Below, in pieces: positions 42,442 to 56,431 of a stretch of 64,000 bases of DNA. Numbering within the stretch: position 1 is the stretch's first letter; every line of letters begins with the position of its first letter. The position numbers were made by a program, and so were the translations under genes. The DNA lies in assembly GCF_014203605.1 (NCBI RefSeq), contig NZ_JACHJJ010000010.1:62001-126000 (forward strand), read 5' to 3'. The notes under the pieces were generated by a model. The model worked only from the letters and a program-made list of their open reading frames with translations, was not told the DNA's origin and searched no databases. The DNA comes from Thiemannella venezuelensis. GTDB lineage: Bacteria; Actinomycetota; Actinomycetes; Streptosporangiales; Streptosporangiaceae.

Positions 42442-43224
42442 ATGAACCGACTTGCTGAGACCGACCTGTCCGTCACGCTGTCCAAGAAGGAGGCGGCCGA
42501 GCGGCTCGACGCGGCCCTGCGGCGGCTGCTCCGGCTCCGCCTGATGCTCGGCGGGCAGATCGGCGACAAGCGGATCGGCCCTCCGCTCTGCGTCGTCTTC
42601 GAGGGCTGGGACGCCTCCGGCAAGGGCGGCGCGATCAAGCGGCTGGTCCGTCCGCTCGACCCCCGGCACGTCCGGGTCGCCCAGTTCGCCGCGCCGACCT
42701 ACGACGAGAAGCGCCACCATTTCCTCTGGCGGTTCTGGAAGGTCCTGCCCGGCTGGGGCGGCATGGCGGTGCTCGACCGCTCCTGGTACGGGCGGGTGCT
42801 GGTGGAGCGGGTGGAGGGCTTCGCCACCGAGGAGCAGTGGTCCCGTGCCTACGGGGAGATCGTCGAGTTCGAGCGGACCCTCGCCGCCGAGGGCATGATC
42901 ATGGTCAAGTTCTGGATGCACGTCTCGGAGGAGGAGCAGCTCCGCCGCTTCCGCGACCGGGCGGCGGACCCGCTCCGGGTCTGGAAGCTCACCGACGAGG
43001 ACTGGCGCAACCGGGACAGGCGCCCGCAGTACGAGGCCGCGGTGGAGGAGATGCTGGAGCGCACCGACCACCCGGACGCCCCCTGGCACGTGATCGCCGG
43101 GGACGACAAGCGGTACGCCCGGGTCGCGGTGGTGGAGACGGTCTGCGCGGCGGTGGAGGCCGAGCTGACGGCCCGCGGCTACGACCTGACCGACCCCGCC
43201 CCGGGCTCCGCCGGCGACGACTGA
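42442..43224 (+). CDS. ppk2: Polyphosphate kinase 2 family protein
   Basis: About 260 residues, one P-loop domain. Walker A is FEGWDASGKGGAIKRL (about residues 54-69), Walker B is AVLDRSWYGRVLVERVEGF, and the lid carries DEDWRNRDRRPQY. These are the diagnostic PPK2 motifs. It transfers phosphate between polyphosphate and nucleotides; whether the acceptor is AMP, ADP or GDP cannot be judged. A GTG at 42436 would add two residues, and neither start has a good ribosome site. The 3' end overlaps the convergent CATRA-like gene by 46 bases. Confidence 0.92.
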   Translation: MNRLAETDLSVTLSKKEAAERLDAALRRLLRLRLMLGGQIGDKRIGPPLCVVFEGWDASGKGGAIKRLVRPLDPRHVRVAQFAAPTYDEKRHHFLWRFWKVLPGWGGMAVLDRSWYGRVLVERVEGFATEEQWSRAYGEIVEFERTLAAEGMIMVKFWMHVSEEEQLRRFRDRAADPLRVWKLTDEDWRNRDRRPQYEAAVEEMLERTDHPDAPWHVIAGDDKRYARVAVVETVCAAVEAELTARGYDLTDPAPGSAGDD

Positions 43225-44696
43225 CGTGACCGGTGGCGGGAGTGGGGAGTCGTCCTCCGCCGCAGCAGCCACCACGCCAGGTGGAGAGTGACGAGGAGGA
43301 GGGCGGCCCCGGCCGATGAAGCGGCAAGGGCCTGAACCGGAGGTAGGGGAGGACGGCCCGAGCCGTAGGTGGCGACCGAGCAGGCGAACCAACCCAGAGC
43401 GCCGCCCGACAGCGCCGTGAGGATTCGGTCGGTGGCGTTCAGCCGGGCCGGGGACGATGCGAAGCGGTGGACGATCGGGGGTGCCGTCAATGCCAGTGCG
43501 GCCAGCAGCACGATCACCGGGGCCTGGCTCCGCGACGGGAGGGGGACCCGGTAATCCAGGGACTGGATGGCACCCAGCGCCATGAGGAGGGCACCGAGCA
43601 GTGATGCCTGAAGCAGGGTCAACCGCTGCTCCCGGTGCCGCAGCCGCTCCTCGATCATCGTCCGGGCCGCTTGGGCGACGTCGGTCGCGCTGTCCCTGGT
43701 GGCCTCCACATAGACGATGTCGGCGTCGAGCTGCTCGGCCAGCCGATCGCTCAGGCGCCGATCGTGGTCGAGGAAGGTGCCTGCGGCGGCGTCCTCGCGG
43801 ATCGCCGCCCTCATGTTCTCCGCTGCGATCTTCACGCTCAGGCGAATCGTCCGCAGGTCGCGAAGCGCCGTGACGAGCCCGGCGTTCCCGCTGACCGCGG
43901 AGACCACGGCCGCCTGCCCGTGTGCCAGCTCGGCGGTCGTGACCCGGCCTCCCCGAGCCGCGGCATCATGGAGCAGCCCTGCGAGGCGGTCGGTCAACGT
44001 GTCCACCTCCACGCTGACCCTTCGGAACCGGTCCTCGTTGAGGATCAGCCACCATGCCCAGCGCATCTTCGCGGAGTGGAGCAGGTACCTGCCGAACGGG
44101 CGGAGCTCTGCCGCTCCGGAGGACCACGTCCACGTGTACATCTCCTCCTCGTCGCCCGGCTCGGCGAGAACGACCAGACGGCGTGTGGCCGGACGGCGCG
44201 GTGCCCGCGCGGAAGGCAGTTCCCGGACGGTGATGCCGCCCCTGCTCCAGACGGGTCCCGGCCCGAGCCGGTCGGGGAGGACATCCCTCGTCCGTCGCAG
44301 GCGGAGCCGGCGCGGGACGGTGACCCCCAGATGGATCCGGGCCGTACCGAGCCCTCCCGACGCCTCATGGGGCCATTGACCGTCGAGGAAGTCCCAGCCC
44401 TTCGCCTCCTCCGCGGCGAGCATCACCATCAAGCCGATGACGTCGTGCTCGCGGTAGAGCACCGCCTGGTAGGTCCCACGACCGGGGATCTCCGCCGCGG
44501 TGAGCACCGTGAAGCGGCCGGCCGGAGGCAGCTCCGCGGGCACGTCGAGCGCGGTGTGCGGGCTTATGGCCCGTGCTTCGCCGAGATCCAGAAAGATCTG
44601 CCAGAGACGGCGGACAGGCTCCCGCCACGAATCACCGTCGTCCCCCACGGCCGTGAAGGCGTGAACGAGCAATGCCTGCTCACGAATCCTCGTCAA
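43179..44696 (-). CDS. CATRA-like membrane protein (third gene of the TPR-CHAT operon)
   Basis: A 505-residue protein starting REQALLVHAFTAVGDDGD a few residues in. The first ~200 residues form a soluble domain (WRLWQIFLDLGEARAISPH-like entry, VTVPRRLRLRRTRDVLPDRLG). A long helical region follows (RVSVEVDTLTDRLAGLLHDAA..., DRLAEQLDADIVYVEATRDSATDVAQAARTMIEERL) and four C-terminal membrane helices at about 359-380, 392-412, 425-444 and 456-478. I assign it to the CATRA group (caspase- and TPR-repeat-associated) because of this layout and its TPR-CHAT partner. TTG 44696 is preferred because GGAGGAGG precedes it; ATG 44723 has no ribosome site. It is a candidate membrane effector cut or controlled by the protease. 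Confidence 0.72.
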   Translation of the reverse strand: MTRIREQALLVHAFTAVGDDGDSWREPVRRLWQIFLDLGEARAISPHTALDVPAELPPAGRFTVLTAAEIPGRGTYQAVLYREHDVIGLMVMLAAEEAKGWDFLDGQWPHEASGGLGTARIHLGVTVPRRLRLRRTRDVLPDRLGPGPVWSRGGITVRELPSARAPRRPATRRLVVLAEPGDEEEMYTWTWSSGAAELRPFGRYLLHSAKMRWAWWLILNEDRFRRVSVEVDTLTDRLAGLLHDAAARGGRVTTAELAHGQAAVVSAVSGNAGLVTALRDLRTIRLSVKIAAENMRAAIREDAAAGTFLDHDRRLSDRLAEQLDADIVYVEATRDSATDVAQAARTMIEERLRHREQRLTLLQASLLGALLMALGAIQSLDYRVPLPSRSQAPVIVLLAALALTAPPIVHRFASSPARLNATDRILTALSGGALGWFACSVATYGSGRPPLPPVQALAASSAGAALLLVTLHLAWWLLRRRTTPHSRHRSRQSSPAEPGAGSVRS

Positions 44697-45018
44697 CGGC
44701 GGCCTCCTCCTCCCGCAGGGCATGGGTGACGAACGCTCCGATGCGCCGTATCGTCCTGTTGATCATCTCGGGTATCTCCACCGGGTCCTCGGGTGCGTCT
44801 CCCGAGGTGATGGGCCGAGGTCCGCCCCTTCTCCCGTCGGCCGACTCGATCTGGCTCAGGCACCCGAGGACGGCGGCTGTGTCGCCCGCCTCGACTGCCT
44901 GCTCCAATGCCGTGATCTCAGCGGAGACCTGCTCCCACTCCCGGGCGGACAGTGACCATCCTCGGACCCGCCCGAGCAGCTCCGCCGTCTCGTGAAGGCT
45001 CTCCTGGTAAGTGAGCAT
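44680..45018 (-). CDS. Small helical protein of the TPR-CHAT/CATRA operon
   Basis: A 112-residue, mostly helical, acidic protein: YQESLHETAELLGRVRGWSLSAREWEQVSAEITALEQAVEAGDTAAVLGCLSQIES, then a Gly/Pro loop and a second helix EIPEMINRTIRRIGAFVTHALREEE. It has no membrane segment. It lies between the CHAT protease and the CATRA-like gene and overlaps the latter's start by 17 bases. It is preceded by GAGGGGGAGG. I recognise it only as the small associated protein expected in such operons. Regulator or inhibitor of the protease or effector is inference. Confidence 0.75.
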   Translation of the reverse strand: MLTYQESLHETAELLGRVRGWSLSAREWEQVSAEITALEQAVEAGDTAAVLGCLSQIESADGRRGGPRPITSGDAPEDPVEIPEMINRTIRRIGAFVTHALREEEAAVDEDS

Positions 45019-45063
45019 CCTCCCCCTCGCTGTTCGAGACCATCCCTTCGGCGGTCGCGGACG

Positions 45064-48000
45064 TCAGAAGCCGGAGTGCACGAACGGCGCCCAGACGATC
45101 GGGGCCTGAGGACGTCGGTCGCGCAGTCTCCGCACGGCTCCGTGCAGCGCCTGGGCCGCGGCGTCGGCACGATGCCGCGGGCGGTTCGGGAGGCGCGAGT
45201 AGAAGTCGGCTGCCACGGTCCGCGATATGTGGTCGGTGGCACCCCACAGGGAACCGATCACATGACGGTATCCCGCCGCCTGGAACGAGGCCACCAGGTG
45301 CTCCGCCTCGTCGAGCCGGTCCATCGAGGGAGCCGCGGTGTGACAGGCGGAAAGGTAGGCGAGTTCCGCGGCCGGAAAGTGGGATCGGCCGACTCGGTCG
45401 ACGTCCAGGGTGCCGTCGGACAGATAGAGCTGCGCGGGCCGCTTGCCCGGTACGGCCGGCGTCCCGTGGCAGGCGATGTGCGCCCACGGATGTGTCGCCA
45501 GCCCCTGCAGTGCCGCGTCCACTGTCGCGTCCTCCCCCGTGACCACCGTGCCGCGGCCCACTTTCCGAAGGATCTCCTCGATCTCCGCCGTGACGCTCGG
45601 GAGCGGGGGGCCACCCGGCGTCGACGGCATGCCGAGGGTGAACAGGTGCGGTTCGCCGGCCGCGTGATGCGTTCCGGAGCCCTCGTGCGCCGCCAGCGGA
45701 AGGGCGCTCACCGTGCTCGTGTACGAGGAGACCACCCGGTCTATGACGTTCTCTCCACCGGAGTGGTACCCGCGCCCCGCCGCGTGCAGAGGGGAGAGGC
45801 AGAGCACGCCGGTGGGGCACCACCAGATGCGCGGCCATGGGCCCTCCTCCGCCGGGGCGCGGACATGCCCCAGCGCGCGGAGGATCGGCTCGGCCGCCGC
45901 TTCCCAGAGCCATGCCAGATGGTCTTGCACGAGCCGGTTGAGACTTTTCGGGTCGAGGGACGGGCGGGGGGCGAACTCCCATTCGATGATCGCGCGCTGG
46001 AGCTCGTAGGCCTGCTCCTGGGCTGTGTGAAATGTGAGATCGGGGAGGTGGATCCTCTCCGTGCGGTCAGCCGTGAGGGCGATGGCGTCACACCCGATCC
46101 GGCTGACGTTGACCACGACGACGGCATCCTGTCCGTGCAGGGCCCTGATGGGGGTGATCCGTGGCGGAACGCCCAGACTCCTCAGCCGCGGATCCCGGCG
46201 TATCTCCGCGGTGAGTACGTTCCAGTCGGAATGGAGCCGCACCTTGAGGTCGTGGGGGTGTTCCCATTGATCGTCGAACAGTGATGAAACAAAGGAATGG
46301 AGCTTATCGAGACCGCCGGGCATGAGAAAAATATCGGGATTGTGCCACTCGTAGTCGTCTTTGTGATATTCGTGCTGGGCTGCGAGGATGGTGAAGGTGC
46401 ATCTCAGGTAATCGATGAACCGCTCGGCGGAGGGAACCAGGTCGAAGGCCTCGACCGCTCTGCTCAGGATCGCCATGCGCTCCGCCAGGTCGGGTCTCAC
46501 CGAGCGCAGCAGGTCGATGTCCCTCCGCTTCTGCAGCGTCGTGTTGCGCAACCTGCAGCGGCCGCGTTCCAGCAGTTCCAGGGCGTCCTCCGGCCGGCCC
46601 GAGCGCAGCGCGCACGCGGCCGCGTCACGTGCGACCGCCGCCCACCGCGTCAACCGATCGCGTCGCTCCGCGAGCGACGCGGTATGCCACTCCAGATCGT
46701 CGACCAAGTGCAATGCGATCTCGTACGCCACTGCGGCCTGGGGGTGGTAGCCGAGCTCGATCGCCGCCTCGGCCCAGGCGAGGGCCGCCGTACGGCGGGT
46801 CTCGGGCGGGATAGGCTCCGTTCCGGTCGCCACCGGCCGCAGATGGCGGATCGCCCTCCGGCAGTCGGTGAGACTTCCGTAACCCTTCTGGTAATTGTCC
46901 AGACGGAGGCATCCCAGAAGAAACCGGTCGTGAGCCTGGTGCTCTTGCGGACTCCCGCCGTCCACTTTCTCACCCAGGACGGCGAGGGCTTCCAGGCGGT
47001 CGTCACGCGAACCCCGCCGCCAGAGAGCACGCGCGAAGTGGCCTGCCGCCTCCTCGGAGCAACCGGCCGCCTCCCGTGCGAGTTCCACCGCCCGGTCGGC
47101 GTCCGCTCGATCGCCGGACAGGTCGTACCGCTCCAGGAAGGCGGTGCTCAGGTTGGCGAGCCGCTGTGCGCGGGTCGGCAGCTCGGGCGTCTCCGGAACG
47201 GACATGAGCCCATGGAGAACGCCGATCAGGGAGTCCAGGCCCTCGACGCCCGTGAAGGCTTTCGTCTCCAGGGCCATGGCCGCGACGCTGTACAGGAGAT
47301 TCGGGCTGGTCGGCCCGTGGTCCTTCACGAGCTCCGCGAGGATCCGCAGCGCCTCCCGCAGGTCCTGCGGAACGTGGCACCGCCGGTACCGCTCGTAGAG
47401 CCATAAGGCCAGTTCTCTTCTGAACTGCGGATCGCCCGCCTCGTTGCCATGGCGGAGCACCCCGCGCATGACCGTGATCGCCTCGTTCAGGTCATCGAGC
47501 CCGTCCGCGGCCTTGAACCGGTCGTGTAGTGCCGACGCCAGTGAGAGCCGCAGGTACCTGCCGGTAGGGGTGTCCGGTGGGAGGGATCTGGAGAGGGCGG
47601 CGGCCTGGGAGATGATCGCATCCAGGTCCTCCGAGCCGGGTACCATCCTGGACCGGCTGTGGAGCAGGGAGAGGAGACAGGCCTGCGCGTCGGTCTCGTC
47701 AGCGGATCTCGACGCCCGGCGGCGGACGATCGCGATCGTCCGGTCCAGCAGGTGGAGGCCGTCCGGACCTTCGACCAGGATGCCTGCGATCATGTGGAGA
47801 CATTCCAGCAGTTGCGCCGTCTTACGGCGCTGACGGTCACTCGCGAGGGCCCGTTCGAGGATGCGGAGGGCGAGTCCGGCGTCCTCGGCCCTGCCGTCCC
47901 GGCGAGAACGCAACGCCAGGCATCCGGCGAGAGCCGTGGTGATCTTCTTCCGGGCCTCCCAGGAGGGCAGCACGCCGCTGGAGATGCCCCCTCTCGAGAT

Positions 48001-48858
48001 GACCTCGTCCAGGTCGTCGGGATGGGTGCTCATGCCGTACCTCAGGAAGAGCGCGTGGCACAGGTCCGCGACGGCCTCCGCGTGCTCGGGACGGCCGGGG
48101 ACCGCGGACTCCAGCCGCCTGCGGGCCCTGATGACGGCTCTGCCGGTGAGCCGCCGCCGCTCGGCCGTGGAGACGACCTGCCTGTACCACTGGTAGTCCT
48201 TCGCCACCAGATCCGGATCGCCTTCGGCAAGCGCGCGGTCCAGGTAGTCGCACACGAGCGGTGGCAGCAGCGACGGATGGAAGGGACGCGTCCTCTCGAA
48301 CTCCTCCAGTGCCCTTATGAGTTCCATCAGCGCGGCGCCTCCGTCCGGAGACATGGCCATGTAGCGCGACCAGTGCACATGCGCCAGGACGTAAGAGATT
48401 CCGGCGGGAAAGGAGCACTCCGCAGTGTGATCGCGGAGATCGGCCAGGCACCCGGCCTCCACGGTCACCGCACCGGACAGGAGCCTCCGGGGGTCGGCGC
48501 CCTCCAGGTGGTTACGGAGATTCCGGATGATCTGTGAGATCAGGTCTTCCGCCAGATCAGCCGGCATCGGAGAGGAACAGCCGTCCAGCCGCCGAGGCAA
48601 CAGGCTCATCACCGTCAGCCACTCCGGCTCGGCGAGCTCTTCGGGAAGCGCCAGGAAGCGGTACCAGTGGACCCGGATGACGAGGTCGAGCGTGCTCATG
48701 CGCCTTTCCGGCCCGCCCAGAACGGAGCGCTCGTCACCGACGAGCTCAAGGAGCCGGGCGGCCCCCGCCGGCACGTCGTGGTCCAGGACCGCGGCATCCA
48801 GGCCCGCGGCGAAAGCCTCGCAGCTCCGCTCCAGGAAGGACACCGTCTCGTGGAACAT
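45064..48858 (-). CDS. TPR-CHAT caspase-like protease
   Basis: A 1264-residue cytosolic protein. The N-terminal ~250 residues are helical. Residues ~250-750 are tandem TPR-like helix pairs (for example LFLRYGMSTHPDDLDEVISR; LRLSLASALHDRFKAADGLDDLNEAITVMRG). The C-terminal ~350 residues form a CHAT domain. Its dyad is His in WAHIACHGTPA (about 1131) and Cys in AYLSACHTAAPS (about 1172), followed by EAEHLVASFQAAGYRHVIGSLWGATD. Both catalytic residues are present. CHAT proteases act in bacterial immunity and cell death, for example CHAT-gasdermin and Craspase-type systems. It is the first gene of the operon and looks less GC-biased than its neighbours, hinting at acquisition. Confidence 0.92.
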   Translation of the reverse strand: MFHETVSFLERSCEAFAAGLDAAVLDHDVPAGAARLLELVGDERSVLGGPERRMSTLDLVIRVHWYRFLALPEELAEPEWLTVMSLLPRRLDGCSSPMPADLAEDLISQIIRNLRNHLEGADPRRLLSGAVTVEAGCLADLRDHTAECSFPAGISYVLAHVHWSRYMAMSPDGGAALMELIRALEEFERTRPFHPSLLPPLVCDYLDRALAEGDPDLVAKDYQWYRQVVSTAERRRLTGRAVIRARRRLESAVPGRPEHAEAVADLCHALFLRYGMSTHPDDLDEVISRGGISSGVLPSWEARKKITTALAGCLALRSRRDGRAEDAGLALRILERALASDRQRRKTAQLLECLHMIAGILVEGPDGLHLLDRTIAIVRRRASRSADETDAQACLLSLLHSRSRMVPGSEDLDAIISQAAALSRSLPPDTPTGRYLRLSLASALHDRFKAADGLDDLNEAITVMRGVLRHGNEAGDPQFRRELALWLYERYRRCHVPQDLREALRILAELVKDHGPTSPNLLYSVAAMALETKAFTGVEGLDSLIGVLHGLMSVPETPELPTRAQRLANLSTAFLERYDLSGDRADADRAVELAREAAGCSEEAAGHFARALWRRGSRDDRLEALAVLGEKVDGGSPQEHQAHDRFLLGCLRLDNYQKGYGSLTDCRRAIRHLRPVATGTEPIPPETRRTAALAWAEAAIELGYHPQAAVAYEIALHLVDDLEWHTASLAERRDRLTRWAAVARDAAACALRSGRPEDALELLERGRCRLRNTTLQKRRDIDLLRSVRPDLAERMAILSRAVEAFDLVPSAERFIDYLRCTFTILAAQHEYHKDDYEWHNPDIFLMPGGLDKLHSFVSSLFDDQWEHPHDLKVRLHSDWNVLTAEIRRDPRLRSLGVPPRITPIRALHGQDAVVVVNVSRIGCDAIALTADRTERIHLPDLTFHTAQEQAYELQRAIIEWEFAPRPSLDPKSLNRLVQDHLAWLWEAAAEPILRALGHVRAPAEEGPWPRIWWCPTGVLCLSPLHAAGRGYHSGGENVIDRVVSSYTSTVSALPLAAHEGSGTHHAAGEPHLFTLGMPSTPGGPPLPSVTAEIEEILRKVGRGTVVTGEDATVDAALQGLATHPWAHIACHGTPAVPGKRPAQLYLSDGTLDVDRVGRSHFPAAELAYLSACHTAAPSMDRLDEAEHLVASFQAAGYRHVIGSLWGATDHISRTVAADFYSRLPNRPRHRADAAAQALHGAVRRLRDRRPQAPIVWAPFVHSGF

Positions 48859-48993
48859 CGGTCACCGCTTTTCCGCGATGGACGGGGGTCGCGTCACACG
48901 AACAAGGGTCTTGCCGACGGTCCGTGATGAAAAGTGCCGCCGGGGATAGAACGCGGCGCGGAAAGGGCCCGGGCGCGTCGGCCGTCCCGCTTC

Positions 48994-50401: not shown

Positions 50402-52021
50402 TCACTGGTAGCCACGGATCTCCTTGAACGCCGAGGCCAGCGAGCCGTCGCGGGCGTCGAAGACGGCGCCCCCGGTCAGCTCGGCCACCCTGTTCATCTC
50501 CTCGGCGTCGCTCTCGCCGAACAGCACGACGAACGTCCGCGGCCGCCGGGCCTCGGGGAGCATCCGGTACAGCCGCTCGAAGTCCTCGAACGAGGAGCCG
50601 TCGGTGTTCTCGCCGTCGGTCATGAGCACGACCGAGGTGTAGTGGCCGGGGTCGCCCCGGAGGCTCTCGGTGTAGGCGGCCCGGAGCCCGTCGTAGATCG
50701 CGGTTCCCCCGCTCGCCTGCAGTTCCCCGGCGTACGCCCTGATCTCCTCCAGCACTGGCCCCGGACCGCGCTCGGGCAGGCTGAAGGCGCGTGGCTCGTG
50801 CGGGCCTCCGCTGAACGGGACCATGGTCACGTGCTCGCGGCTGCGGAACCGGGAGAACGTCCCCGAGGGCGAGCGGTCGGCGCCGGTCAGCGTGACCAGG
50901 GCCTGGCGCAGCGCCTCGATCCGCTCGCCCTTCATGGAGCCGGAGACGTCCAGGACGAACAGGGCGTGCGCGGGGGTCCGCACCTCGTCGAGGTAGGCGG
51001 TGACGAGCGCGTCGGCGGCCGCCCTGCGGTTCGGGAAGGGCAGCTCCAGCAGGGGCGCGGAGCCGAACTCCGGGCCGGGCCGGACCTCCGGGATGCCGGG
51101 CCGCCGGTGCGTGGAGGCCATGATCTCGCGCTGCACGTCCGGCGTGCGCAGCCAGGCGGCGAGCCTGCCGTACAGCTCCTTCTTCTCCGCCGGGGCGGAG
51201 GCCAGCAGGGTCAGCGGGTAGTCCGCGGTGACCACGCCGTCGCTCGGGTAGACGAGGGTGAGGTCCTTGATGCCCAGCAGCACCGACTCGTAGTTCACGA
51301 GGCCGTCCACCCCGCCCTGCCGGGTGTAGGTCTCGGCCAGCCAGCCCGACGAGCCCGAGGTCAGCTTCTGCGCGGAGAAGAACTCCTTCAGCTCCGGCGT
51401 GACCGAGGCGACCCGGGCGGTGTCCAGCGCCTCGCCGGCGTCCGAGAGCGCGGCGGCCACGCCGACCAGCGCGGAGAACCCCGAGTTGGACGAGGCCGGG
51501 TTGGCCATGCCGAAGGTGAACCTCCCGTCCCGGGCGGCCGCGGCGATCTGCTTCCAGGTCGCCTTCCCGTCCGCCCAGCCGAGCTCGGCGGCCTTGGCGG
51601 TGCGCAGGCCGAGCAGGACCGGGGAGGACATGACCTTGGTCTCGGTGGACAGCCGGGCGGCGGCGCCGTCGATCAGCGACAGGTAGCGGTTGGAGGAGAA
51701 CCAGACGGCGTCGTACCTGCCGTCGGCGCCGCCGCCCGCGACCTGCTCGGCGCCGTCCAGCGTGCCGGTGTAGGAGATCTTCACCTTCACCCCGGAGCGT
51801 GCCAGCAGCGGCTCCAGGTCCTTGACCTCGCTGCCGGCCAGCACCCGTAGCACGTCCGGCCCGTCGGCGACGGTGCCGTCCGCCGAGCACGCCGCCAGGC
51901 CGAGTGCGGGCAGCAGCACCAGCAGCGACCCGATCGCCGCCCGGAGCGCGGCCCCGCGGGCGCCCGCCCGCCGTACGGCCCCGCGGGCGCCCCGCCGTGC
52001 GGCCCCGCGCGGGGCGCTCAC
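50402..52021 (-). CDS. Lipoprotein with substrate-binding and von Willebrand factor A domains
   Basis: A 539-residue exported protein. A basic N-terminus and hydrophobic helix end in lipobox LAAC (Cys45). Residues ~55-320 resemble an extracellular solute-binding protein (VLRVLAGSEVKDLEPLL, YDAVWFSSNRYLSLI, FGMANPASSNSGFSALVGV). Residues ~345-535 are a vWA domain with the MIDAS motif DVSGSM (Asp at 358), T in DRSPSGTFS and D in MTDGENTD. Such fusions act at the outer membrane face and bind metal-dependent ligands. It overlaps the TelA stop by four bases. It is paired with a second solute-binding-like protein upstream. Confidence 0.88.
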   Translation of the reverse strand: MSAPRGAARRGARGAVRRAGARGAALRAAIGSLLVLLPALGLAACSADGTVADGPDVLRVLAGSEVKDLEPLLARSGVKVKISYTGTLDGAEQVAGGGADGRYDAVWFSSNRYLSLIDGAAARLSTETKVMSSPVLLGLRTAKAAELGWADGKATWKQIAAAARDGRFTFGMANPASSNSGFSALVGVAAALSDAGEALDTARVASVTPELKEFFSAQKLTSGSSGWLAETYTRQGGVDGLVNYESVLLGIKDLTLVYPSDGVVTADYPLTLLASAPAEKKELYGRLAAWLRTPDVQREIMASTHRRPGIPEVRPGPEFGSAPLLELPFPNRRAAADALVTAYLDEVRTPAHALFVLDVSGSMKGERIEALRQALVTLTGADRSPSGTFSRFRSREHVTMVPFSGGPHEPRAFSLPERGPGPVLEEIRAYAGELQASGGTAIYDGLRAAYTESLRGDPGHYTSVVLMTDGENTDGSSFEDFERLYRMLPEARRPRTFVVLFGESDAEEMNRVAELTGGAVFDARDGSLASAFKEIRGYQ

Positions 52022-54377: not shown

Positions 54378-54560
54378 ACTCCTTTTTCTGGAATAACCCC
54401 GTGAATGGGATTATGTGAGCCAGAGAAAAGAGGCGTGTTCTCCAGGTGGCGACGGGCGGGAGAATTCAATCCGTGTTCATTCACCCGTCATCCGGGGGGC
54501 CGCGGAGCGCGGAGAGCCGCCCGGGACCGGGGAGGCCGGGCCCGGGGCTCCCCGGCGGGA
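54378..54560. other. Promoter region of the TelA cassette and end of the acyl-CoA ligase gene
   Basis: A 183-bp gap between the cassette start and the ligase stop. The right half is GC-rich and carries a Gly/Pro-type inverted repeat likely to terminate the ligase transcript. The left half is AT-rich with an imperfect inverted repeat TAATCCC...GGGGTTA (about 54,393-54,413), the likely promoter/operator. Confidence 0.4.
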
Positions 54561-56372
54561 TCAGACGCGTTCGACCGGGTTCCTGTAGAGGGAGTCGAGG
54601 AGCTCCCGGTTGCGCTCCTCCACCTCGCGGCGGCGCACCTTCATGCTCGGGGTCAGCTCGCCGCTCTCCACGGTGAAGTCGGCCGGCAGCACGGCGAAGT
54701 CCTTGACGGTCTCGTAGCTGGCGAGATCGGCGTTGACCGTCTCGATCGCCCGCCGTACCTCCTCGCGGAGCCTGGGATGCGCGCACAGCTCGGCCGGGTC
54801 GGACGGCAGGCCCTCCGCCTGCGCCCAGGGGGCGACCACGTCGGCGTCCAGCGTCACCAGCGCCGTGCAGTAGTTGCGCCGGTCGCCGTGGACGACGACG
54901 TGCGACAGGAACGGGCAGGCGGCCTTGATCCGGCCCTCCAGGTGCTGGGGCGCGACGTACTTGCCGCCGGAGGTCTTGATCAGCTCCTTCTTCCGGTCGG
55001 TGATGCGCAGCCGCCCGGCCTCGTCGAGCTCGCCGATGTCGCCGGTGTGCAGCCAGCCGTCCTGGAGCGCCTCGGCGCTCTCCTCGGGCAGGCCGTGGTA
55101 GCCGCGCATGATCCCGTGCCCGCCGATCAGGATCTCCCCGTCCTCGGCGATCCGCACGGTGACGCCGGGCAGCGGCGGACCGACCGTGCCGAACCTCACG
55201 TTCCCCGGCCGGTTCACGAAACTTCCGGCCGACGACTCGGTCAGTCCGTACCCCTCCAGGATCGTCAGCCCGGCGGCGTCGAAGAACTCGGCCATCTCCA
55301 GGGAGAGCGGGGCCGAGCCGGAGATGAAGTAGCGGATGCGCCCGCCGAACCTGGCGCGGAGCTTGGCGAAGACCAGCCGGTCGGCGAGCGCGTGGCGGGC
55401 CCGCAGTCCGGGGGAGAGGGCCCGGCCCTCCTGCCGGGCGCGGACGGTCTCCAGACCGACGCCGCGCGCCCAGCGGAACAGCTTCAGCTTGATCCCGCCC
55501 TCGCGCTGCACGGTCGCGGCCACGGTGTTGTGGATCTTCTCGAAGATCCGGGGCGCGGCGGCCATCACGGTGGGCCGGACCGCGCCGAGGTTGGCGGCGA
55601 TGCGGTCCAGGCGGCCGTCGACCACGGTCGGCGTGCCCACCGCGATCATCACGGACTCCAGCAGCTTGCCGAACGAGTGGGACATCGGCAGCCAGAGGAA
55701 GTGCAGGTCGTCGGGGGTCAGCAGCTCGATCTGCGCGGCCGCGCGGGCGGTCTGCAGCCAGTTGCGGTGGGTCAGCTCCACCCCCTTGGGGCGGCCGGTC
55801 GTCCCCGAGGTGTAGATCAGGGTGGCCAGGTCGTCCTCGGTGACGGCGTCCACCATCCGGTCGTACTCGCCGGCCCCGCCCGCGGCGGCCTCCTCACCGG
55901 AGCGCGCCACCTGGTCGAGGGTGAGCACCCAGCCCTCCTCGTCCGCCTCGCCGTCGATGACGACCACGTGCTTGACGGCGGGGATCTCGCTCCTGACGGA
56001 GCGGAGCTTGGCCACCTGGTCGTCGTTCTCCGCGACGACCAGCACGCTGCCGGAGTCGGTGAGGATGAACGCGCACTCCGCGGCGGTGTTGGACGGGTAG
56101 ATCGTGGTGGTCGCGGCGCCGGTGGACAGGACCGCCAGGTCCGCGACGATCCACTCCACCCGGGTCCCGCAGAGCACCGCCGCCCGGGTGCCGGGCTCCA
56201 GACCGAGCTCGCGCAGCCCCAGGGCCAGCGCGCGGACCCGCTCGCCCGTCTCGGACCAGGTGAGACAGGCCCAGCCGTCGCCCGACGGGTGGCGGAAGGC
56301 CTCCGTGTACGGTGTCGCTCGGACCCGGCTCCGCAGCAGGGCGGGGAGGGAACCGGTGTATTCGACGCTCAT
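54561..56372 (-). CDS. fadD: Long-chain fatty acid-CoA ligase (AMP-dependent synthetase)
   Basis: A 603-residue ANL-superfamily enzyme. The AMP-binding P-loop is DDLATLIYTSGTTGRPKGVELTH; further motifs are YGLTESSAGSFVNR, DGWLHTGDIGELDEAGRLRITDRKKELIKTSGGKYVAPQ (A8/A10 core) and the C-terminal Lys region LTPSMKVRRREV. Sequence pattern follows the FadD15-type long-chain ligases of actinobacteria, which activate fatty acids with ATP. MSVEYTG at 56372 is preceded by GAGG; an upstream ATG at 56396 lies inside the operator. It is divergent from a TetR regulator. Confidence 0.95.
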   Translation of the reverse strand: MSVEYTGSLPALLRSRVRATPYTEAFRHPSGDGWACLTWSETGERVRALALGLRELGLEPGTRAAVLCGTRVEWIVADLAVLSTGAATTTIYPSNTAAECAFILTDSGSVLVVAENDDQVAKLRSVRSEIPAVKHVVVIDGEADEEGWVLTLDQVARSGEEAAAGGAGEYDRMVDAVTEDDLATLIYTSGTTGRPKGVELTHRNWLQTARAAAQIELLTPDDLHFLWLPMSHSFGKLLESVMIAVGTPTVVDGRLDRIAANLGAVRPTVMAAAPRIFEKIHNTVAATVQREGGIKLKLFRWARGVGLETVRARQEGRALSPGLRARHALADRLVFAKLRARFGGRIRYFISGSAPLSLEMAEFFDAAGLTILEGYGLTESSAGSFVNRPGNVRFGTVGPPLPGVTVRIAEDGEILIGGHGIMRGYHGLPEESAEALQDGWLHTGDIGELDEAGRLRITDRKKELIKTSGGKYVAPQHLEGRIKAACPFLSHVVVHGDRRNYCTALVTLDADVVAPWAQAEGLPSDPAELCAHPRLREEVRRAIETVNADLASYETVKDFAVLPADFTVESGELTPSMKVRRREVEERNRELLDSLYRNPVERV

Positions 56373-56387
56373 GACGCACCTCGGTTG

Positions 56388-56411
56388 GAGTGGCACTCTA
56401 GAGCGTCACTC
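56388..56411. promoter_or_regulatory. Two tandem inverted repeats, predicted operator for the ligase/TetR pair
   Basis: GAGTG-G-CACTC (56388-56398) is followed after TA by GAGCG-T-CACTC (56401-56411). Both are 11-bp inverted repeats of the form GAGTGnCACTC, the second with one mismatch. They lie in the 59-bp space between the ligase start (56372, -) and the TetR start (56432, +), next to the -10 regions of both. A binding site for one or two TetR dimers, probably released by acyl-CoA. Confidence 0.7.
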
Positions 56412-56431
56412 TAGCAATCGGGGGAAGAGCG

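Follow-up and report, generated by a model that had tools for sequence, protein, structure and literature searches.

A CHAT protease, CATASP and membrane-type CATRA locus of Thiemannella venezuelensis belongs to the predicted CATRA ternary conflict systems

In a 64,000-nucleotide (nt) stretch of the Thiemannella venezuelensis genome (contig NZ_JACHJJ010000010.1, positions 62,001 to 126,000 of the forward strand; hereafter, the window), we identify, on the basis of the encoded protein sequences, a three-gene locus as a member of the already described, predicted CATRA ternary conflict system; its effector is probably of the membrane type. The system was reportedly first described by Burroughs and Aravind in 2020 (J. 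Bacteriol.); Pfam expands its name as “CASPASE and TPR Repeat-Associated.” The three open reading frames (ORFs) lie on the minus strand exactly at positions 43179 to 48858, where the original prediction, made from the letters alone, had placed them, and the co-orientation, close packing, and overlap of the last two genes that it described are all found. In reading order, gene 1 (45064 to 48858) encodes a caspase-like TPR-like/CHAT protease of 1264 amino acids (aa) and is followed after 45 nt by gene 2 (44680 to 45018), which encodes a small protein of 112 aa. The membrane protein gene (gene 3, 43179 to 44723) comes last. Its product is 514 aa long when translated from an ATG, in which case it shares 44 nt with gene 2; an alternative TTG start at position 44696 (codon 10), which by eye has the better Shine-Dalgarno sequence, would yield 505 aa and an overlap of 17 nt.

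Each of the three proteins is recognized by the family models expected for a CATRA system. Gene 3 matches both Pfam CATRA-N (PF20269; E = 1.2e-26, 94.3 bits versus a cut-off of 27) and CATRA-C (PF20270; E = 2.7e-22, 80.4 bits versus a cut-off of 24.6), as well as the NCBIfam family NF038357 (BN6_48550 family, E = 1.2e-74). Thus, the CATRA identity that the original prediction had suggested and proposed to test by profile searches is borne out, with scores far above the cut-offs and no match to an unrelated family. The small protein is a CATASP, or “CATRA-Associated Small Protein” (PF20271; E = 1.8e-10, 41 bits versus a cut-off of 29). The protease matches Pfam CHAT over residues 979 to 1263 (positions 45070 to 45924, minus strand; E = 2.2e-34).

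The His-Cys catalytic dyad of the protease lies exactly at the residues given earlier. It is strengthened by an alignment of 35 CHAT proteins, comprising the window protease together with 34 of the 46 listed from other CATRA loci, in which H1127, H1131 (codon at 45466 to 45468, minus strand), and C1172 (codon at 45343 to 45345, minus strand) are invariant. In a set of 50 CHAT pieces, the His is present in 44 (6 gaps) and the Cys in 46 (4 gaps), the gaps being due to fragments and split hits. The description of gene 1 as a TPR protein fared less evenly. Pfam TPR models give no match in the window protease itself at E values up to 1, but its middle part (approximately residues 240 to 810; 46429 to 48141, minus strand) can be aligned with the central portions of related CHAT proteins, 7 of 35 of which are matched by TPR_12; the repeats are thus TPR-like by homology. 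When the protease was compared with the 46 other CATRA-linked CHAT proteins using phmmer, 38 were matched, most of them over the C-terminal ~395 residues of the protease, and its central repeats gave weaker matches. The N-terminal ~240 residues (48139 to 48858, minus strand) have almost no matches in this set: locus L088 matches at residues 9 to 96 (E = 3e-4), and the rows for L070 and L107 are not significant. This variable N terminus would be the natural candidate for a recognition or sensor region.

To estimate how consistently the three parts occur together, we surveyed 67 distinct CATRA loci. Loci L085 and L086, contig repeats (L089, L095, L096, L097, L104, and L113), and the second fragment of the L103 CATRA, whose frame is broken, were dropped before counting, and a strong CHAT match was defined as E < 1e-20 in an ORF of at least 300 aa. 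A CATASP gene lies within 200 nt upstream of CATRA on the same strand in 55 of 67 loci, a strong CHAT gene is found within 3 kb of CATRA in 45, and all three parts are present in 41, so the trio, for which the original prediction had proposed such a survey, are not rare neighbors. A looser tally that includes weak CHAT fragments gives 49 and 45 loci, respectively; the stricter values of 45 and 41 are used throughout. The nearest strong CHAT gene is located upstream on the same strand in 7 loci, downstream on the same strand in 16, upstream on the opposite strand in 13, and downstream on the opposite strand in 9; the gene order of the window, with all genes on one strand, is seen in 7 loci. The proximity of CHAT thus survives rearrangement, which is better explained by a shared function than by inheritance of gene order. 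Since only six CHAT matches are present in the 8.2 megabases of the T. venezuelensis genome, chance proximity of CHAT and CATRA should also be rare.

Of 341 genomes from the same family, 37 contain CATRA-N and 35 contain CATASP above the respective cut-offs; among 396 genomes sampled across the phylum, CATRA-N exceeds its cut-off in 3 (both CATRA-N counts include the T. venezuelensis genome). A wider scan yielded 26 CATRA loci, 6 of them repeat contigs, in Actinoplanes, Micromonospora, Streptomyces, Kibdelosporangium, Nonomuraea, and other actinobacteria. Proteins of ~1335 aa with sub–cut-off similarity to CATRA-N were seen in five genomes (G650, G651, G655, G681, and G683); L085 and L086 are among them, and neither CATASP nor CHAT was found near these two.

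The CATRA proteins differ in what they carry at the C terminus. Among 47 proteins scanned, 22 match a CAP12/Pycsar TIR domain, 3 a PNP domain, and 2 a GT4-conflict domain. Clustering of the C-terminal parts from 65 loci (L103 and L105 were excluded) revealed 25 membrane modules, including that of the window, 23 TIR, 6 PNP, 2 GT4, and 9 unclassified, where a two-member cluster was taken as the GT4 pair. Six of the unclassified entries (L045, L055, L098, L100, L101, and L102) are empty because of an alignment artifact, and three (L082, L084, and L111) are singletons; a TIR profile matched none of the nine. The PNP module was confirmed by Pfam in L108 and L109, the latter despite a hydrophobicity that had suggested the membrane class. 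The exchangeability of the C termini supports the conflict-system identity and suggests that CATRA-N and CATRA-C constitute a platform. The membrane module occupies the place where typical conflict-effector enzymes sit in other CATRAs, and the membrane helices are therefore probably the effector of the window locus.

The AlphaFold model of the window CATRA protein is confident [predicted local distance difference test (pLDDT) of 84.8, predicted template modeling (pTM) score of 0.73], apart from a C-terminal tail of low confidence. It consists of an alpha/beta head corresponding to CATRA-N (residues 17 to 203; 44115 to 44675, minus strand), a helical bundle corresponding to CATRA-C (residues 209 to 346; 43686 to 44099, minus strand), and a membrane module comprising transmembrane helices TM1 to TM4 (residues 364 to 491; 43251 to 43634, minus strand) also supported by alignment and hydrophobicity. 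A 76-residue helix (316 to 391), whose end forms TM1, is followed by helices at 397 to 422, 430 to 454, and 462 to 491. The soluble half and four C-terminal membrane helices described earlier are thus present in the model, with the qualification that the third is marginally hydrophobic, with a Kyte-Doolittle value of only 1.45, whereas the other three attain 1.5. The membrane family forms one cluster with two to four helices. Its first hairpin is conserved (A-I-Q-S/A-L-x-Y-R-V-P-L-P, AIQSLxYRVPLP in the window), and L383, A385, Q387, and V393 are invariant in 16 aligned members of the class. Among the 25 membrane-class loci, CATASP is adjacent to CATRA in 24 and strong CHAT is present in 20. 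Clustering of neighboring genes showed no clear fourth component of this class; judged by their position, several of the largest neighbor clusters are antisense ORFs of CHAT and CATRA. Sequence searches of the Protein Data Bank (PDB) returned no match for CATRA alone or for a 47-row CATRA profile, and one scan of viral contigs with the CATRA protein revealed no relative.

For CATASP, the original prediction had suggested a keeper of the off-state. Over the 44 three-part loci, Mantel correlation was strongest between CATRA and CATASP (r = 0.69), compared to 0.40 for CATRA-CHAT and 0.28 for CATASP-CHAT; none of 2000 permutations reached any of the three values. When plain correlations were calculated for pairs more than 40% different in CATRA, they were 0.52, 0.16, and 0.07, respectively. 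In L108 (7590 to 9833; Pseudosporangium ferrugineum), CATASP, CATRA-N, CATRA-C, and PNP_UDP_1 are encoded in a single ORF, a natural fusion. Because CATASP covaries more with CATRA than with CHAT and is fused to it in L108, it appears to be primarily the partner of CATRA, most simply its lock. Overall, the earlier interpretation stands as regards a CHAT protease, a CATRA membrane protein, and a co-occurring unit, while the small protein is now refined to a CATASP that tracks CATRA. Beyond this, the survey assigns the effector role, as likely, to the membrane module, couples CATASP to CATRA, and reveals a macro-domain regulator gene accompanying TIR-type CATRAs.

We infer for the trio sensing, cleavage, locking by CATASP, pore formation, toxicity, and an antiviral role, which would be connected as follows. 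An infection or another danger signal would be sensed by the variable N terminus and repeats of the protease, rendering it active. CATASP, translated just before CATRA, would most likely hold CATRA inactive. CATRA-N and CATRA-C would serve as a soluble platform bearing an exchangeable C-terminal killing module, here a membrane module of four helices carried on a long helical stalk. The activated protease would cut CATASP or a regulatory loop of CATRA, releasing the hold of CATASP; the freed membrane modules would oligomerize and permeabilize the membrane, and the cell would die or arrest before the phage could spread. We regard this explanation as a whole, a CATRA conflict system with a CATASP lock and a protease-released membrane-permeabilizing module, as somewhat probable.

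Several observations weigh against it. Twenty-two of the 67 loci have no strong CHAT gene within 3 kb, and CATASP is still adjacent to CATRA in 14 of them. When one large neighbor was scanned in each of eight CHAT-less loci, no caspase or trypsin was found; these neighbors included sub–cut-off NACHT, NB-ARC/TPR, and a TPR protein. Among the 46 CHAT proteins linked to other CATRAs, phmmer finds eight that do not match the window protease, and the Mantel values blend shared ancestry and cotransfer with coevolution. In two of five additional CATASP loci, CATASP has a CHAT gene nearby but no CATRA: in L156, the two genes are ~55 nt apart, and in L155, ~490 nt apart with a 98-aa ORF between them, and in neither case did the 16 kb inspected contain a CATRA match. 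No cleavage site was identified; in the model, the stalk helix that connects CATRA-C with TM1 is continuous and confident, and it offers no flexible linker at the point just ahead of TM1 where a cut would be expected. No PADLOC model matches any of the three proteins, and no experimental work on CATRA or CATASP turned up among the papers listed from the openly licensed literature, which is not proof of absence. As a separate observation, L079 (8798 to 11701) encodes a TPR protein without a detected CHAT domain at the place of the CHAT gene in the related-looking L076.

The loci L155 and L156 suggest that CATASP may act as an adaptor and not as a lock. In this case, CATASP would bring the protease to CATRA, which would be cleaved and activated as Csx30 is by Csx29, with no keeper of the off-state. 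The adjacency of CATASP in 24 of 25 membrane-class loci is consistent with such a role, and fusing CATASP to CATRA would serve tethering no less than inhibition. However, CATASP covaries least with CHAT and stays with CATRA in most loci that lack a nearby strong CHAT gene, and we consider an adaptor possible but on balance doubtful. It is unlikely that the membrane helices merely anchor a signaling platform while the protease kills by cutting cellular proteins: the intact, invariant dyad and the existence of CATRA forms with two transmembrane helices, which could be simple anchors, would fit this explanation, but the membrane module replaces the TIR, PNP, or GT4 enzymes of other CATRAs, and the conservation of its first hairpin exceeds what an anchor needs. 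A chance neighborhood or a decayed, functionless cassette might account for the sporadic distribution of the trio and its absence from a sister genome; this is barely credible given three intact ORFs with the dyad in place, and the co-occurrence of all three parts in the survey already contradicts it.

The shape of the CATRA model raises yet another alternative, in which membrane-class CATRA would be a divergent channel of the CorA/ZntB/Mrs2 superfamily opened by the protease. A long stalk helix running into TM1, followed by TM2, is common to both, and the top Foldseek matches of the whole model are CorA proteins (8tmb, E = 4.4e-3, probability of 0.98). With VIA, the matches included Mrs2 8q8q [Z = 10.7, root mean square deviation (rmsd) of 8.8, 190 aligned residues], ZntB 3nvo (Z = 10.1, rmsd of 2.7, 111 aligned), and CjCorA 8zak (Z = 9.4, rmsd of 2.5, 119 aligned); the resemblance to Mrs2 and ZntB runs through the bundle, the stalk, and the first two membrane helices. 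However, Foldseek gives no E value of 0.001 or lower and ranks a GPCR (G protein–coupled receptor) fourth, while in VIA the unrelated BAG1 bundle 4hwi is second (Z = 10.3) and a designed protein is fifth (Z = 9.6). All VIA Z values are below the tool’s caution level of ~13 for helical bundles and may reflect a common helical arrangement. When CATRA-N was folded alone, no CorA appeared among the best 50 rows of each structure-match list; the rows that ranked highest were all weak and comprised a mitoribosomal protein with a Z of 6.7 and Med18/20 with Z values of 6.0 to 6.5. Alignment with hhalign against 30 CorA sequences picked by the YG[MQ]N motif gave probabilities below 1%, with best E values of 0.038 (global, C-terminal part) and 0.09 (local), and Pfam CorA (PF01544) gave no match at E ≤ 1. 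A GMN-type motif follows TM1 in the CorA superfamily, and the CorA proteins compared carry YGMN or YGQN; the corresponding loop of the window CATRA is SLDYRVPLP, without such a motif, and this protein has four helices rather than two. We therefore reject homology on the evidence of the profiles and of isolated CATRA-N, retaining CorA as a resemblance of layout, not as membership; a true CorA-type channel is quite improbable.

TIR-type CATRAs are distinguished by an additional gene. In 13 of 23 TIR-type loci (L040 to L044, L046, L047, L049, L053, L054, L057, L063, and L065, by profile), CATRA has a ThsA-type macro gene no more than 3 kb away, compared to 0 of 44 others; the latter include 11 loci of other or unknown module, and the Fisher P value of 4.5e-8 is only indicative since the loci are related. 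Pfam identifies a Trans_reg_C/BTAD region joined to a ThsA-type macro domain in L155 (8124 to 9557) and L157 (8064 to 9419). ThsA macro domains bind ADP-ribose (ADPR) and imidazole adenine dinucleotide (IAD), according to passages of PMC11204291; TIR-type CATRAs may therefore signal through a nucleotide. It is tempting to generalize to a platform locked by CATASP, unlocked by the CHAT protease, and fitted with interchangeable death modules, the membrane class being a CorA-like stalk-and-hairpin channel opened by proteolysis and the TIR class producing a nucleotide signal to which a dedicated macro-domain transcription regulator responds. We offer this composite tentatively and consider it rather unlikely to hold in full.

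The trio insertion is cassette-like. In the one other genome of the same genus that was compared (G595), homology stops at window position 43224 and restarts at 48993, and thus the variable block (43225 to 48992, no strand) corresponds to the trio alone. On either side, the PPK2 and hemerythrin genes are 93 and 81% identical to those of G595, where they are ~1.5 kb apart, and a different gene (G595:C2; L152, 1499 to 2740) encoding ~405 to 414 aa without a Pfam match occupies the site, which suggests a swap site. The CATRA ORF ends with 46 nt that run antisense through PPK2 sequence also present in G595, and so the C-terminal tail of CATRA may be an accident of insertion. The lower guanine-cytosine (GC) content noted earlier was confirmed: it is 0.690 in the trio block versus 0.735 for the window, and as none of 117 sliding windows was lower, this is the lowest-GC stretch of its size. 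GC at third codon positions (GC3) is 0.81 to 0.85 in the block versus 0.95 to 0.98 in six of seven other ORFs measured in the window; the seventh (54405 to 56414), with a value of 0.70, may be on the wrong strand. A consensus scan for promoters and terminators gave no match. PPK2, hemerythrin, and a VWA protein were identified as neighbors of the trio; the last of these, encoded at 50402 to 52021 on the minus strand, combines a solute-binding domain with the VWA domain.

The window locus is a compact, intact, membrane-class representative of a bacterial caspase-centered system, and the survey yields assignments that can be tested: the effector part, the partner of CATASP, and the residues to mutate. 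As in the CATRA ternary systems, the three named domains score over the Pfam cut-offs, the CHAT protease adjoins, and a module is located in the effector position; the published passage names GT4, whereas the module is a membrane one here. CATRA systems are mentioned in passing in the relevant passages of PMC8195603 and PMC12657218. Csx29 of the type III-E CRISPR system (Craspase) is likewise a repeat-plus-CHAT protease. According to passages of PMC10028731, TPR-CHAT Csx29 is an RNA-activated endopeptidase whose TPR region relays the signal to the caspase site, and its His and Cys (H615/C658) are 43 residues apart compared to 41 in the window protease. The two differ in that the sole PDB match of the protease by sequence, TPR-CHAT 7zoq, is nonsignificant (E = 0.71), and in that the trio is flanked by PPK2 and hemerythrin and its partners are CATASP and CATRA. 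With CorA/ZntB/Mrs2 channels, including the CorA-family effector in type III CRISPR mentioned in passages of PMC12255297 and PMC10600005, CATRA shares a helical bundle, a stalk helix into TM1, and a short TM2. No sequence relation to this family was found, and CATRA lacks a GMN-type motif. Bacterial gasdermin operons place a protease beside a membrane-killing protein, as in the trio. The CATRA model differs from gasdermin in consisting of an alpha/beta part and long helices, and no gasdermin family is among its Pfam matches, where the existence of a bacterial gasdermin model in Pfam was not checked. If the proposed mechanism is true, the locus would be a bacterial counterpart of the membrane death that caspases trigger, relying on a membrane protein that is not a gasdermin.

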